Shown: positions 2,586 to 51,073 of the stretch, piece by piece | Position numbering within the stretch: position 1 is the stretch's first letter | Layout: each line of letters begins with the position of its first letter | Virus record (IMG/VR): IMGVR_UViG_3300034418_011250 | Span: 24,935 to 88,934 of that record | DNA: 64,000 nucleotides | Source: a virus | Strand: one strand, 5' to 3' | The notes under the pieces: generated by a model | Seen by the model: only the letters and a program-made list of their open reading frames with translations | Databases searched by the model: none | Told to the model about the DNA's origin: nothing | Translations under genes and position numbers: made by a program

Positions 2586-3421
2586 TATTCGTTATCCACT
2601 AAAATGATGTCAAATGTTGTTGATATTTCTGAACCTGTTGAACATAATGCTCTTGCTTCTATATCTGTCTTTTCTAAAAATTTAAGAGGAATATTATAAT
2701 CTCTTGTAAAATGTCCTCCTGGAACACACATTACATCTAGTGTTCTAAAAGCACCACCACCAAAAGGTTTAAACACTAACCATGCTGTACATTGGTCATT
2801 ATATGCTCCAACACCAACATTCCATTGTGTCATGTATCCTGTTTTTCCTGCTGGTATGGTATAAAATCCAGAGAAAGATTGACCTGTTCCATATACTGTT
2901 CCGCCACCCAAAGTATCAATAGTAGTAAGAACTTTTCCTAAACTGGCAGCATCTGATATTGATAGAGTTCCTACATTCGTACCAGTTGAACCAGATGTAA
3001 CAACAAATGCACGAAACACTCTTAAAAATTGTACAGCACTTGGTGCACCACCTACAACAATGGTATCTTCTACAGCAGTATAATTTGCATCTAATCCTTG
3101 AACGGTAACAGTTCTTGCACCAATTGCTGCTGCACCATCGCTTCCACTTGAACTATAACAATAAACAATGGAAGGAGAAGAAAGATAAGAATAAACTCCA
3201 CCACCTCCCCAAATGGTTTCTGGAGCACCACCAATTGAAGGATTTCTTCCAAATTTATGAATAACAGAATATCCTTCTAAATTTCCAGCTGCAATCACAA
3301 CATTTGATGCTGCACCAAATGTGTTGATAATGTTTCCATCTTCATCGCTAATCATCACCACTTCATGATTTGTGGTTTGTTGCGGAAGATAAGCCTGTGA
3401 GTATTTACTCCATTGTGCCAT
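2585..3421 (-). CDS. Virion structural protein, beta-rich
   Basis: 278 aa from the ATG at 3421 (MAQWSKYSQAYLP), chosen because AAAGAAAG lies just upstream and the longer frame has no good ribosome site. The protein is rich in G, S, T and V with alternating hydrophobic residues. It includes 'YTIPAGKTGYMT' and, near the C-terminus, 'IPLKFLEKTDIEARA', motifs I associate with particle proteins of marine phages. It sits in a late structural block. It may be a decoration or fibre-type protein; the exact location in the virion is unknown. Confidence 0.55.
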   Translation of the reverse strand: MAQWSKYSQAYLPQQTTNHEVVMISDEDGNIINTFGAASNVVIAAGNLEGYSVIHKFGRNPSIGGAPETIWGGGGVYSYLSSPSIVYCYSSSGSDGAAAIGARTVTVQGLDANYTAVEDTIVVGGAPSAVQFLRVFRAFVVTSGSTGTNVGTLSISDAASLGKVLTTIDTLGGGTVYGTGQSFSGFYTIPAGKTGYMTQWNVGVGAYNDQCTAWLVFKPFGGGAFRTLDVMCVPGGHFTRDYNIPLKFLEKTDIEARALCSTGSEISTTFDIILVDNE

Positions 3422-3422
3422 A

Positions 3423-3656
3423 TTATTCTTTCTTTGATGCTCGCTTCTCTCTTGCAAGCATGATTCGTTTTACTAACTCTTTTACAATTTTTGTACGACC
3501 ATCATATGTCATGTCTTTCTTTTTCTTTTTGTCAATCAATGGTCTATCCGGATTAGCAATTGCTGGACCAGTTGAGTTGGTTGGTGCCTCTTCATTACGA
3601 ATTCCTGATTTAGGATCACTGTAATATTTTTGCATTAGTTCTTGAAAAGAAATCAT
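3423..3656 (-). CDS. Small basic protein carrying a capsid-processing-like motif
   Basis: 77 aa. The N-terminus MISFQELMQKYY resembles the amphipathic start of head-targeted proteins. Residues 23-31 (EAPTNSTGP) nearly repeat the segment right after the predicted gp21 cleavage site of this phage's major capsid protein (AAPTNSTGA). The rest is very lysine/arginine-rich. It may be a minor head or prohead-core component processed like gp23. No known enzyme domain is seen. The stop lies 1 nt before the start of the next gene. Confidence 0.5.
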   Translation of the reverse strand: MISFQELMQKYYSDPKSGIRNEEAPTNSTGPAIANPDRPLIDKKKKKDMTYDGRTKIVKELVKRIMLAREKRASKKE

Positions 3657-4231
3657 TTCTTAATCCTTATGTCATCTACTGAAACATATATTGGCTGATT
3701 TGTTCTTTTATGTATTGCTTCATAAATGTCAATTCCCAAAACATTATCAACAGGGCTGGCATCATTCTCAAAAATAATTCTATCACCAAATTTTGCTAAT
3801 GTCTCAAAATCCGGAAGCATCATTTCTGATCTCAATTTATACTCACCAGAAGGAATGCTTCCGAAATAATCTTCAGATATTTCAGAACTGAGATTATTAT
3901 CTTTCATTATTTCTTCTAATAACATTTTCTGTATTTGATCAAAATCTTCTATTTGTTCTTTGAATGTGTCTTTTAAAAGAAATAATGCTGCTGCATATGT
4001 TCCAAGTCTTGTCCCCAATCCTGGAACCTTTCCCATCAATCTTTTGATATTAAAAATCAATTTATGAAGAATAGTGTAAGATGCTTTTTCTTCAGGTGTT
4101 TCTATTTCTTTTTCAGTTCTATAACCTTTATCATCAATAATACCATAGGTAAAAGCATCTTGTTTATTAAATGGTTTTACTAATAATTTTATGAATCTGT
4201 ATGTGACAAATAAATCTACTAATCTTCCCAT
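3653..4231 (-). CDS. Conserved T4-like marine phage protein, probable virion component
   Basis: 192 aa starting MGRLVDLFVTYRFIKLL. The N-terminal half is helical with a basic centre (KLIFNIKRLMGKVPGLG) followed by a hydrophobic alpha-helical patch (TYAAALFLLKDTF). The acidic C-terminal half ends in a beta-like 'IYVSVDDIRIKK'. From memory I recognise this family as conserved in marine T4-like myoviruses next to a DUF7207-type gene, but without assigned function. It overlaps the next gene by 4 nt (ATGA). Confidence 0.5.
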   Translation of the reverse strand: MGRLVDLFVTYRFIKLLVKPFNKQDAFTYGIIDDKGYRTEKEIETPEEKASYTILHKLIFNIKRLMGKVPGLGTRLGTYAAALFLLKDTFKEQIEDFDQIQKMLLEEIMKDNNLSSEISEDYFGSIPSGEYKLRSEMMLPDFETLAKFGDRIIFENDASPVDNVLGIDIYEAIHKRTNQPIYVSVDDIRIKK

Positions 4232-24621: not shown

Positions 24622-25553
24622 TTAAACCTCACATTTGACATGATTTCTGTCATACAAGCTAACAGATTGATCTCTTGGTCACTGACAAATGCAGACTTAT
24701 ATTGGTAATCTGCAATAATTAAAACCAACTGTGGAACACTAGCAGGTTCCAATCGTTCATATAGAGTATCGTAAATTTTACGATAGATTCTAGTAGGATC
24801 ATTATCAAGATTATTTGCAACCCATTTCCTCAAATTACCAAATTCTTTTTCTTTAAGAAAACTTGTCATTTCTTTCAAGTTCTCGTCTGAAATATTTACA
24901 AGAATACCAGCATCGATTTCACCTGATGCTGAATATCTTTGTAACTCATTTAAACACCTTCTCCAATCAGGAAAAAATTTCTCAATTATCCCTGCAACAG
25001 CCTTTGGATTAAACTTGACATTTTCTTCTTCTAATATCTCAGTGATACGTTTAAAGAATTGTGCTGCAAGTTTGGGTTTCTCTTCATTTGGTATTCTAAA
25101 TTCAACGACAGAACATCGTGAATGTAGTGGTTCAATGATGCGATTCTTAAAATTACAAGTTAAAATGAATCCGCAATTTTTATGAAACTCCTCAATGAAT
25201 CCACGAAGAGCAGGTTGAGTTGATTGGGGATTTAGATAATCTGCCTCATCAAGAATTACAAACTTTCTGTTTGTATCAAATGAAACAGTAGATGCAAAGT
25301 TTTTAATCTTGTTTCTGAGAACATCAATACCTGATTCCTCAGAACCATTGATCATCATGTATGTGGCATCAATTTGTTGCAACATAGCCTTTGCAACAGT
25401 AGTTTTACCTACTCCTGGACCGCCTGAAAGCAAAAGATTAGGAATATGTTCATCATCTACAAATTGTTGAAATGTATTCTTCAATTGTACTGGAAGAATA
25501 CAATTCTCAATAGAGTCTGGGCGATATTTTTCTACCCACAAATAATTTTTCAT
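24618..25553 (-). CDS. gp44: Clamp loader ATPase (AAA+)
   Basis: 311 aa (T4 319). N-terminal 'LWVEKYRPDSIENCILP', Walker A 'SGGPGVGKTTVAKAM' (about 44-58), Walker B 'KFVILDEADYLN' (about 96-107), sensor I 'FILTCNFKNRI' and arginine finger 'PLHSRCSVVEF'. It opens and loads the gp45 ring on primed DNA with gp62. Confidence 0.93.
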   Translation of the reverse strand: MKNYLWVEKYRPDSIENCILPVQLKNTFQQFVDDEHIPNLLLSGGPGVGKTTVAKAMLQQIDATYMMINGSEESGIDVLRNKIKNFASTVSFDTNRKFVILDEADYLNPQSTQPALRGFIEEFHKNCGFILTCNFKNRIIEPLHSRCSVVEFRIPNEEKPKLAAQFFKRITEILEEENVKFNPKAVAGIIEKFFPDWRRCLNELQRYSASGEIDAGILVNISDENLKEMTSFLKEKEFGNLRKWVANNLDNDPTRIYRKIYDTLYERLEPASVPQLVLIIADYQYKSAFVSDQEINLLACMTEIMSNVRFK

Positions 25554-45557: not shown

Positions 45558-45565
45558 TATTTATA
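45558..45565 (-). promoter_or_regulatory. Late promoter TATAAATA of gp20
   Basis: Perfect late promoter on the minus strand, directly after the gp19 stop and 33 nt before the gp20 ATG. It would start the head assembly operon. Confidence 0.65.
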
Positions 45566-48379: not shown

Positions 48380-48387
48380 TATTTATA
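48380..48387 (-). promoter_or_regulatory. Late promoter TATAAATA of gp18
   Basis: Perfect late promoter on the minus strand, 56 nt before the gp18 ATG, in the gap after the terminase C-half. Confidence 0.65.
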
Positions 48388-48399
48388 AAAAATGAATTT

Positions 48400-49563
48400 T
48401 CACCATGGTGTGTCATATGAACGAACTACAGAACTCCATTTTGTTCCATATTCATCAATAACTGATTCTTCATTATGATAATCGGTAACACCATCATCGA
48501 TAAATCCAAATGGAGCCATGTCTTGCTCAATCTGACTTTGTTGTTCTAAAAACAATCTGGATCGGATGTCATCATTCGTAAGTTCTTTGAAATACTGTTG
48601 TTGAACAGCCCAACCAAAAATCACACAGCACATTGCTAAATCGTCCGTATGTCCCTCCTCGGCTTCATAGGACTGTCCTCTCTGAATGAATGTTGACCAT
48701 TCAGTGATTAGGTCGTAATCTTGTATGATTAACTTGTCAGTCTCAATGATTTGTTTTATATTAGAACATCCTGTTGATTTGACTGCCTTTGAAGTTCGGA
48801 CTCCCAGTTGAGCCTTTCCACCTGAGAAACCTCCACCAAGAATTTGTCCTGCTCGCCCACGCATAGCAGCCATGATCAAATTTCCGTACTCTAGATCGAA
48901 CTGAAGAGCATGCGCCACCTGCTCACCAATGTCATTTACTTCAACAAGAACATGAGCTGTGTTGTATGCTCTTGCAATCTCACTAATAATATTCGGAAAC
49001 AACATTGGTTTGATTTCATTGTTTCGATATTTGGCAGAAATCTTGTAAGGAACAGTTGTTACATCAAAAACAATAAATGCTGAATAGTCATTGCTTAGTC
49101 CTCTTGCCACATCAGCAACCAGAAAATATGTGTTGCCTTCTATCGGATTTTCATAGACATCCAATCCTGCATTTGATTTGATTGGATTTCGATATGCCAT
49201 TGTTCGTATCTTAGTCGGATGTATTAGTGTATTTGTTGAACCTAAGAAATTGCAATTATGAGATACAATATTATTAGTATAGTATAAATTTTCTTTTTCT
49301 ACTTCAACCAAATCATATAAATCTATTTCATTTTCAACATCTTCTGAATATAGAATTTGTTTCCCATTTAAATACTCACCAACAGATAATGTTTTTGCAA
49401 GTATTTTACTCTCTCCAAAAGCATGATCCAATGAGCATTTTATTTCTGTTTTATCCTCAAAAATAATGTGCCTATAAACATTCTTTTTAATTTGTCTGAT
49501 TCCTCTAAAATCAGACCAACCTGTTGGTGTTAAAACGCAATAACTATTATTCTCTTTAAACAT
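48400..49563 (-). CDS. gp17: Large terminase C-half with C-terminal split intein
   Basis: 387 aa. Residues 1-103 are the C-terminal intein piece: 'TEIKCSLDHAFGESKILA' contains the block B histidine (H47), and 'NLYYTNNIVSHN|C' gives the penultimate His102, terminal Asn103 and Cys104 as the first extein residue. Residues 104-387 are the gp17 nuclease domain, starting CNFLGSTNTLIHPTKI, with 'YFLVADVARGLSNDYSAFIV' (metal-binding Asp) and 'GHTDDLAMCCVIFGWA' near the end. After splicing to the N-half it would give 551 residues. Its start overlaps the endonuclease gene by 8 nt. Confidence 0.9.
   Translation of the reverse strand: MFKENNSYCVLTPTGWSDFRGIRQIKKNVYRHIIFEDKTEIKCSLDHAFGESKILAKTLSVGEYLNGKQILYSEDVENEIDLYDLVEVEKENLYYTNNIVSHNCNFLGSTNTLIHPTKIRTMAYRNPIKSNAGLDVYENPIEGNTYFLVADVARGLSNDYSAFIVFDVTTVPYKISAKYRNNEIKPMLFPNIISEIARAYNTAHVLVEVNDIGEQVAHALQFDLEYGNLIMAAMRGRAGQILGGGFSGGKAQLGVRTSKAVKSTGCSNIKQIIETDKLIIQDYDLITEWSTFIQRGQSYEAEEGHTDDLAMCCVIFGWAVQQQYFKELTNDDIRSRLFLEQQSQIEQDMAPFGFIDDGVTDYHNEESVIDEYGTKWSSVVRSYDTPW
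49255..49563 (-). other. IntC: C-terminal piece of a split intein
   Basis: 103 residues encoded at the start of the terminase C-half, with intein blocks B, F and G in order. The +1 residue is cysteine. The length and break point are like the atypically split AceL-TerL intein described from an Antarctic lake metagenome. Confidence 0.88.
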
Positions 49564-50128
49564 CTTTCCATGTTTTTCTTAATACTATGTTTTTAATATT
49601 TTGAGGTGTCACTTGATAATCTTTTGAATATTTTAAAGAAAATGCTTGAATATATGACATGGCTCTTCCATTTTTTTGAATAACACCAACTCCTTCAATT
49701 TCTGGTTTAGTTTCAAAAATTTTTCTTACTTGAATAACATCTTCTTTGGTCATTTTTGTTGGTTTCCAACATTTACCTTTTCTTATTTTACTCCATCTCT
49801 CTTTAGTTTCTTTGCTAAAAGCATTTTTTACATTTTTATTCCATGGAGTTGTTCCTTTTGGCACGCCACCTATACCCTTTCTAGAATAATCTTCAAATCC
49901 TTCACCACCTGGAGACAAATTCCATCCATTGCCATATGTTTCAAATTTAGATATTAAATGAATTTCTAAATTTTTAGCTTGTTCACGTTCTAAATTTTCA
50001 TATAACACATGAAAAGTATGAGGTGGTTTTTCTCTTTTATGAGAACTTCTTCTTCCTATTGGATTTATTGTTTGTCCAACATATTTAATTTTTTCATCTA
50101 AATCTTTTAAACAATATATTGAATACAT
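49556..50128 (-). CDS. GIY-YIG homing endonuclease between split-intein halves
   Basis: 190 aa. Catalytic domain: 'YSIYCLKD' and 'IKYVGQT' (the GIY and YIG strands), R26/R27, the metal-binding Glu55 ('NLEIHLISKF') and 'NGWNLSPGGEG'. The C-terminal DNA-binding part has 'GTTPWNKNVK' (NUMOD3-like) and a helix-turn-helix 'FSLKYSKDYQVTPQNIKNIV' of the intron-endonuclease repeat type. It is the free-standing enzyme that would cut intein-free terminase genes. It has its own SD (AAGGAG) and late promoter, and its end overlaps the terminase C-half start. Confidence 0.88.
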   Translation of the reverse strand: MYSIYCLKDLDEKIKYVGQTINPIGRRSSHKREKPPHTFHVLYENLEREQAKNLEIHLISKFETYGNGWNLSPGGEGFEDYSRKGIGGVPKGTTPWNKNVKNAFSKETKERWSKIRKGKCWKPTKMTKEDVIQVRKIFETKPEIEGVGVIQKNGRAMSYIQAFSLKYSKDYQVTPQNIKNIVLRKTWKDV

Positions 50129-50153
50129 AATTCTCCTTTAGATTTTATAATAT

Positions 50154-50161
50154 TATTTATA
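50154..50161 (-). promoter_or_regulatory. Late promoter TATAAATA before the homing endonuclease
   Basis: Perfect late promoter on the minus strand, in the 60-nt gap after the terminase N-half and 26 nt before the endonuclease ATG. It would also drive the terminase C-half. Confidence 0.6.
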
Positions 50162-50188
50162 AATCCAAAGAATTTACACTCAACATTT

Positions 50189-51073
50189 TTAAAATAATTC
50201 TTCTATTTTAATAGTTTTAATTTCTTTGCTTTGTTTATGCATAACAACAATATTAGTATCTCCAGAAACGCATTCAAATTCTCTCGAGAATTGTTCTGAA
50301 CTTGTGTTTGCAATTGTTTCAGTTTTCCATTTTTCATCTCTTCCAGGAATCTCGCTCCAATGAACTTCTATTGGAACATATGAATTGATTTGATTCTCTG
50401 CATCACTCCAAAGTTTATAAAACAAATTCATACCATTTGGTGTGGAAATGATTACAACCTTTGTTGATTTACCAGAAGAAATGGTGGGATAAACAGAAGA
50501 GAAAAAGTCTTCAGCAATGTTCTGTGGAACAAAGGCAAATTCATCCAAAAAAATCATGTTATAAGAACCGCCACGAACTGCCGAAGAAGAGGTTGCAGAG
50601 GCAACAATTCTTGAACCGTTTTCTAGTTCAAGAGAACCTTTGTTCCAAGAAAGCACACCTTGTTGTAACCATTTAGGAAGATTCTCATAAGCAAGTTGAA
50701 GTCTTGATAAAATATCTCTTGCAGTAGCTGCTTTGTTTGCAAGAATGGCAACATTGATATTGTTATTGAAAAGAACATAATGTAGAATGTAGGCAACCAG
50801 TGTGGTTGTTTTTCCGCTCTGCCGAGGTAATTTGCATATGGTAAATCTATTGTTGTGAATTGTGCCGACAATATCCTTCTGAAAAGGAAAAAGTTTGAAC
50901 GGCACAACACCTTCATCTAGTGAAACAATCTTGATATAGTTTTCCACAAAATACAGTGGATCTTCCATGCATCTCTGGTATTCAGAGATTGTTTCTTCTG
51001 TCCATTCTACTGCAACGTTGGCACGTTTGAGAAGAGGATTTCCTAAGTATGCCGAATTATCATCAAGTTTCAT
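50189..51073 (-). CDS. gp17: Large terminase N-half with N-terminal split intein
   Basis: 294 aa. Residues 1-267 are the gp17 ATPase: 'CKLPRQSGKTTTLVAYI' (Walker A, about 80-96), 'YNMIFLDEFAFVPQ' (Walker B, about 171-184) and 'KVVIISTPNGMNLFY' (coupling motif). Residues 268-294 are the intein N-piece, beginning with Cys268 in 'CVSGDTNIVVMHKQ' (block A) and ending 'IKIEELF' at a stop. The junction 'SREFE|C' resumes as CNFLG in the C-half. The ATPase powers DNA packaging. Confidence 0.92.
   Translation of the reverse strand: MKLDDNSAYLGNPLLKRANVAVEWTEETISEYQRCMEDPLYFVENYIKIVSLDEGVVPFKLFPFQKDIVGTIHNNRFTICKLPRQSGKTTTLVAYILHYVLFNNNINVAILANKAATARDILSRLQLAYENLPKWLQQGVLSWNKGSLELENGSRIVASATSSSAVRGGSYNMIFLDEFAFVPQNIAEDFFSSVYPTISSGKSTKVVIISTPNGMNLFYKLWSDAENQINSYVPIEVHWSEIPGRDEKWKTETIANTSSEQFSREFECVSGDTNIVVMHKQSKEIKTIKIEELF
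50192..50272 (-). other. IntN: very short N-terminal split-intein piece
   Basis: 27 residues starting with the catalytic cysteine and the C-x-x-G-D-T block A signature. Most natural split inteins have an N-piece of about 100 residues; this one is broken right after block A. Confidence 0.88.

Follow-up and report, generated by a model that had tools for sequence, protein, structure and literature searches.

A phage large terminase gene broken by a split intein and a GIY-YIG endonuclease gene, and the probable homing of this cassette among phages

The window, by which is meant the whole stretch of 64,000 nucleotides analysed here (positions 24,935 to 88,934 of IMG/VR virus record IMGVR_UViG_3300034418_011250), carries on its minus strand a large terminase gene (terL) that is broken into two reading frames with a third gene between them. 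The first frame (51073-50189) encodes 294 amino acids, comprising the 267 residues of the ATPase half of gp17 (TerL-N, 50273..51073; Pfam Terminase_6N, E 1.2e-22; T4 gp17 structures, E ~1e-64) and a 27-residue intein start, CVSGDTNIVVMHKQSKEIKTIKIEELF (IntN, 50192..50272), which opens with Cys1 (Cys268 of the frame, in CVSGDT) and runs into the TAA stop codon that breaks the gene (50189..50191). Sixty nucleotides after this stop begins a GIY-YIG endonuclease gene of 190 codons (50128-49556), preceded by AAGGAG (50134..50139), its likely ribosome-binding site, and by TATAAATA (50154..50161), the -10 element of a T4-type late promoter, which lies 25 nt 5' of the start. The end of this gene overlaps the start of the third frame by 8 nt (49556..49563). 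That frame (49563-48400) encodes 387 amino acids, of which the first 103 form the C-terminal intein part (IntC, 49255..49563; block B SLDH, terminal SHN) and the remaining 284, with Cys+1 as the first residue, the nuclease half of gp17 (TerL-C, 48403..49254; Pfam Terminase_6C, E 2.1e-12), which matches T4 gp17 and the related terminase nuclease-domain structure 3c6a. Rejoined, the two halves give a TerL of 551 amino acids (267+284) with the extein junction SREFE/CNFLGS. This is the arrangement that an earlier note, made from the sequence alone, had described, and all of its coordinates and numbers were right.

Structure matches place the break where the ATPase and nuclease domains of T4 gp17 meet, residue 267 corresponding to about chain position 353 (353/356 of 3ezk). 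The window phage is marine and T4-like, and among cultured phages its portal protein, TerS and TerL are closest to those of the Methylophilales T4-like phage Melnitz (75%, 65% and 66%, respectively). No second copy of TerL, the presence of which the earlier note had taken to count against its reading, was found in the 88.9 kb record, which may be a fragment. The anatomy of the broken terL is confirmed as real and beyond chance for three reasons: first, the same codon boundary is crossed without a gap in 62 intein-free terL relatives, so that the junction is, as had been claimed, a normal gp17 junction and these relatives present the empty site. Second, the IntC matches the engineered CatC of PDB 6dsl with an E-value of 1.8e-32 at 56% identity. 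Third, the identical locus, with 100% protein identity, is present in three more metagenome contigs (L082-L084).

The match to CatC bears out the kinship with AceL-TerL that had been suggested for this intein, given that Cat is a consensus derived from AceL-TerL and GOS-TerL (PMC11766414). The IntN aligns over its whole length with CatN of 6dsl, albeit as a weak match (E 1.3). With its position in a phage large terminase, its split at the N-terminal end into 27 and 103 residues and its homology to a characterised member, the intein falls within the range used here for membership (IntN of 15-35 aa, PMC13014065; IntC of about 100 aa) and is, as judged from these alignments, an atypical split intein of the AceL/GOS-TerL (Cat) type, a divergent one at 56% identity to CatC. 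No weight was placed on a grouping with the intein of locus L099 (support 81), which unites two long branches. The claim that an IntN of 27 residues is among the shortest natural ones holds only in part: it is short, but ordinary for its class, in which AceL-TerL has 25 aa, VidaL 16 aa and natural atypical IntNs range from 15 to 35 aa (PMC13014065). Among relatives the splicing residues are strictly maintained, with Cys1 present in all 83 distinct relatives, HN preceding the cysteine in 153 of 153 and Cys+1 invariant, and the median dN/dS of IntC is 0.10 by a crude pairwise estimate.

The assignment of the middle gene agrees in its PHROG match, its fold and its catalytic residues with what had been proposed from the sequence. 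The Pfam PF01541 score is borderline (21.4 bits in one scan and 22.6 in another, against a cut-off of 22.6), the match to a PHROG of homing endonucleases has an E-value of 9.5e-12, and Y5, Y16, R26, H30, E55 and N70 are invariant across a 36-row alignment of the family. An AlphaFold model of the protein has a mean pLDDT of 79, with residues 1-70 at about 86-92, and its top fold matches are the GIY-YIG domains of UvrC and I-TevI, with a probability of ~1.00 for the best six and E-values of just 0.02-0.08. By reading frame, predicted fold and catalytic residues the nuclease appears to be an intact GIY-YIG enzyme. A crude pairwise estimate of dN/dS over 303 relative pairs gives a median of 0.21 for the GIY-YIG gene, and both this gene and IntC thus appear to be under purifying selection in relatives.

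Within the window TATAAATA occurs 15 times against 5.6 copies expected by chance, a nearly threefold enrichment, often 18-56 nt 5' of gene starts (for example at 45558-45565 and 48380-48387, minus strand), and several copies lie directly 5' of late genes, gp18 and gp20 among them. Upstream of the GIY-YIG gene it is found in 79 of the 83 distinct relatives with a readable IntN, and it is missing from the nuclease-less locus L015 and from the IntN-IntC stretches of L104, L125 and L151. The 8-nt overlap between the GIY-YIG stop and the IntC start recurs in 77 of 84 distinct loci. The position and conservation of TATAAATA, taken together with this overlap, suggest that the nuclease and the C-terminal half would be expressed late. 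The predicted element would represent an endonuclease-associated control element, a feature seen in some fractured loci and not strictly defining for them.

The scans of IMG/VR with IntC and GIY-YIG profiles gave 151 and 152 confirmed stretches, respectively, from which the best 80 of each were taken; some contigs are present under two locus identifiers. A TerL split intein together with a GIY-YIG gene is found in more than 140 IMG/VR loci (84 distinct alleles, from the best 80 per profile), and in the loci taken the IntC lies within TerL wherever the sequence is long enough. CatC is up to 88% identical to the IntCs of relatives that bear a GIY-YIG gene, and the AceL, GOS and Cat inteins therefore very probably belong to this family. 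Three topologies occur at the one TerL site, which is residue 268 when the window protein is rejoined: the GIY-YIG protein is fused to IntN in Vibrio phages VP-1 and K469, fused to IntC in Aeromonas phage PX29 and free-standing in the window. In K469 (L092:985-1962) the GIY-YIG protein apparently has its C-terminal part, putatively the one that binds DNA, twice in tandem.

In four loci (L015, L104, L125 and L151) the split intein is present but the nuclease is missing. Locus L015 is 99-99.7% identical to the nuclease-bearing L017 on either side of a clean gap of ~590 nt, while L104 and L151 retain a scar consisting of the final GIY-YIG codons (ECWKNV and ECSKSV, respectively), which indicates that in these two the nuclease was lost rather than never gained. 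In L151 (1351-1470) the IntN is in frame with these last codons of the deleted gene and the IntC apparently starts with GTG. A bacterial MAG contig (L238) carries a different, unclassified ORF in the place of the nuclease, encoding 247 amino acids between the IntN and IntC of the TerL split intein (3268-4011). This ORF had no Pfam match above the cut-off, no PHROG match and no significant PDB match; its C-terminus resembles, by eye only, the EDxHD (Vsr-like) homing endonucleases.

The history of the cassette differs from that of the gene that carries it. A tree of 114 TerL exteins, obtained by a quick LG+G4 search on a sample biased to the best matches, contains seven changes between the split and intein-free states, at least six of which are forced by well-supported branches, and nests the window, together with L083, in a clade that includes 13 intein-free TerLs (support 99). 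The distances of IntC and GIY-YIG are correlated with each other (Spearman 0.93), whereas against the exteins the coefficients are only 0.53 and 0.56, and AU tests reject a shared topology in both directions (p 6e-5 and 3e-5). Transfer pairs, defined as loci with inserts at least 97% identical and both flanks at most 84% identical, number 13 in five independent groups (insert 97-99.8%, flanks about 72-84%), whereas typical inserts at equal flank divergence are merely ~77-82% identical. In L177/L175 a common insert of 989 nt is 99.8% identical at the DNA level, against 78% for the gene halves, and the pairs L228/L225, L105/L106 and L132/L131 have inserts of 99.0, 99.5 and 97.8% identity, the gene halves in the four pairs ranging over 73-82%. 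The shift in identity falls at both splice junctions.

Cultured phages present the filled and empty states side by side. Compared with the same-species phages VAP7, BX-1 and SD25, VP-1 has an insertion of 1072 nt exactly at the terL split site, and PX29 is filled while Aeh1 (~83% DNA identity to PX29, a more distant pair) has an uninterrupted gp17. Neither VP-1/VAP7 nor the transfer pairs, in which identity falls at the junctions, have obvious co-conversion tracts. These comparisons of aligned loci show recent movement of the entire cassette, with its three parts as one unit, between divergent phages. For the window itself, the closest intein-free TerL is just ~80% identical, which suggests that its own acquisition of the cassette is not recent.

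Given that the nuclease has been lost on its own in four loci and that L238 carries a different ORF in its place, it is possible that only the endonuclease gene is mobile and that it enters, by intronless homing, an intein that was resident and split beforehand. However, this is unlikely: IntN, GIY-YIG and IntC are near-identical together in otherwise divergent genes, and the sharp edges fall at the splice junctions, not at the ends of the GIY-YIG gene. A second possibility stems from the location of the break, since the ATPase and nuclease of gp17 are separate domains and the gene is broken at their boundary: the terminase could work as two subunits without splicing, the intein pieces merely holding the halves together or being carried as passengers. 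This we consider very improbable, in view of the invariance of Cys1, HN and Cys+1 and the low dN/dS of IntC, since pure passengers would lose their splicing residues. That the locus is instead a decaying remnant, with a broken terminase and a dead nuclease in the window phage, is more doubtful still; no support for it was found in the window, where the reading frames of the two halves and of the nuclease are open and keep their catalytic residues, the same locus recurs in three further contigs and no other TerL is present in the record. Group I introns often carry GIY-YIG enzymes, yet the chance that the break is due to an RNA intron, or to an artefact of metagenome assembly, is negligible: the region has no Rfam match, the reading frames are clean intein halves, the same site holds a GIY-YIG gene in the cultured phages VP-1, K469 and PX29, and an assembly chimera might swap flanks yet would be unable to place the same insert in both genomes. 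A sequencing error that splits a contiguous intein was likewise rejected, given that the same overlap geometry occurs in dozens of independent loci and that IntC is out of frame in VP-1 and K469 also.

It is therefore with high confidence that the locus is regarded as a fractured-gene homing cassette in terL, whose halves would be trans-spliced to a 551-aa TerL and whose nuclease would cut intein-free terL. A split-intein gene broken by a nuclease gene, as the earlier note had put it, is also the best reading found here, with a free-standing GIY-YIG gene between the halves and intein-free alleles in existence. In such a cassette the TerL-N-IntN and IntC-TerL-C precursors would be translated separately, IntN would dock into IntC, and class-1 protein trans-splicing (Cys1, Asn103, Cys+1) would yield a normal terminase, so that the insertion would cost the phage little. 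The GIY-YIG protein, probably made from the T4-type late promoter, would cut terL near codon 267/268 in co-infecting phages that lack the intein, and repair off the uncut genome would copy IntN, nuclease and IntC together. While the splicing, the cleavage at the empty site and the repair route during co-infection are steps that we infer, whole-cassette homing with trans-splicing is the simplest account of the anatomy, homology, selection, mobility and nuclease loss. With less assurance, it is suggested as probable that IntN-GIY-IntC is a protein-splicing parasite of phage terminases, made up of three parts and actively homing, which travels as a unit between distant phages, with a cycle of gain, spread, nuclease loss that leaves the split intein behind and occasional replacement of the nuclease; the nuclease-free split inteins would then be fossils.

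Of most interest in these results is the evidence, at the population level, for homing and for loss of the nuclease. To our knowledge the evidence for mobility of the cassette is new, and we know of fractured-gene mobility and the origin and persistence of split inteins as having been argued mainly from single loci so far. The family offers a large set of alleles, among them empty, full and nuclease-less ones and different fusions, as well as the near-isogenic cultured pair VP-1/VAP7, which makes homing of a split intein directly testable by co-infection. In addition to AceL, GOS and Cat, it also provides many further natural inteins with a short IntN for use in protein labelling.

Other inteins of terL were seen alongside. 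In Krischviruses the gene is fractured elsewhere, just after the Walker B acid (YIDE/C ... SHN/CAF), as in Escherichia phage kaaroe (L241:2245-5356), JK32 (L247), G2494 (L246) and GoldenSnicker (L245); here the IntN and a PD-(D/E)XK-like nuclease (Pfam TnsA-like N / Phage_endo_I) form one fusion, and the ORF that follows and overlaps it encodes IntC-TerL-C. Phage kaaroe grows on E. coli K-12 and would be an easy bench model for this locus. Vibrio phage vB_VmeM-32 (L244:1102-3216) has a contiguous mini-intein at this Walker B position. Contiguous inteins also occur at the Walker A lysine, in L086 (2086-3954) and L080 (4234-6918), both of LAGLIDADG type, and in L104, with a mini-intein in VP-1/VAP7 (L090, L091), so that L086, L104 and VP-1 each combine a split intein with a second intein in a single terL. 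In Campylobacter phage CP21 (L243:1118-5404) terL is in several pieces, partly unannotated, with an apparent Walker A intein, more intein pieces and a T5orf172 nuclease ORF.

Fractured genes, in which a split intein interrupts a gene and a homing endonuclease gene lies between the two halves, were reportedly described by Dassa et al. in 2009; the window locus is alike in both respects and differs in its host gene. The pairing of the TerL split site with a GIY-YIG nuclease had been put forward as uncharacterised, which stands as far as experiment is concerned, a literature search, outside whose scope key subscription papers lay, having found no experimental study of it, nor any earlier demonstration that the cassette moves as a unit. 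As an observation the pairing is not new, given its abundance in IMG/VR and the depositor annotation of PX29 (GU396103), which names 17A a 'putative N-intein' and 17B a 'putative GIY-YIG endonuclease and C-intein'. This phage shares the terL site, split intein and GIY-YIG gene with the window and differs in that its GIY-YIG is fused to IntC. Phages VP-1 (MH363700) and K469 (OZ195916) also share the site and the GIY-YIG, and their IntC frame overlaps the GIY-YIG end; unlike in the window, the GIY-YIG is fused in frame to IntN, and their records call the pieces terminase or hypothetical protein. The AceL NrdHF gene is fractured with an intervening GIY-YIG gene, as in the window, but differs in host gene, intein class and split point, having a class 3 intein with a canonical split point (98+48 aa; PMC7891396), and for Campylobacter phage IBB_35 both an intein and an intron, with a homing endonuclease, have been reported to interrupt TerL (PMC3322345). 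AceL-TerL, GOS-TerL and Cat-TerL resemble the window in host protein, very short IntN and long IntC, from which the window differs as a divergent branch with its own 27-aa IntN and 103-aa IntC. In summary, the kind of locus is already known, from fractured genes, from atypical split inteins of TerL and from a GIY-YIG gene within a fractured gene, and the window locus is a divergent member of a large family.
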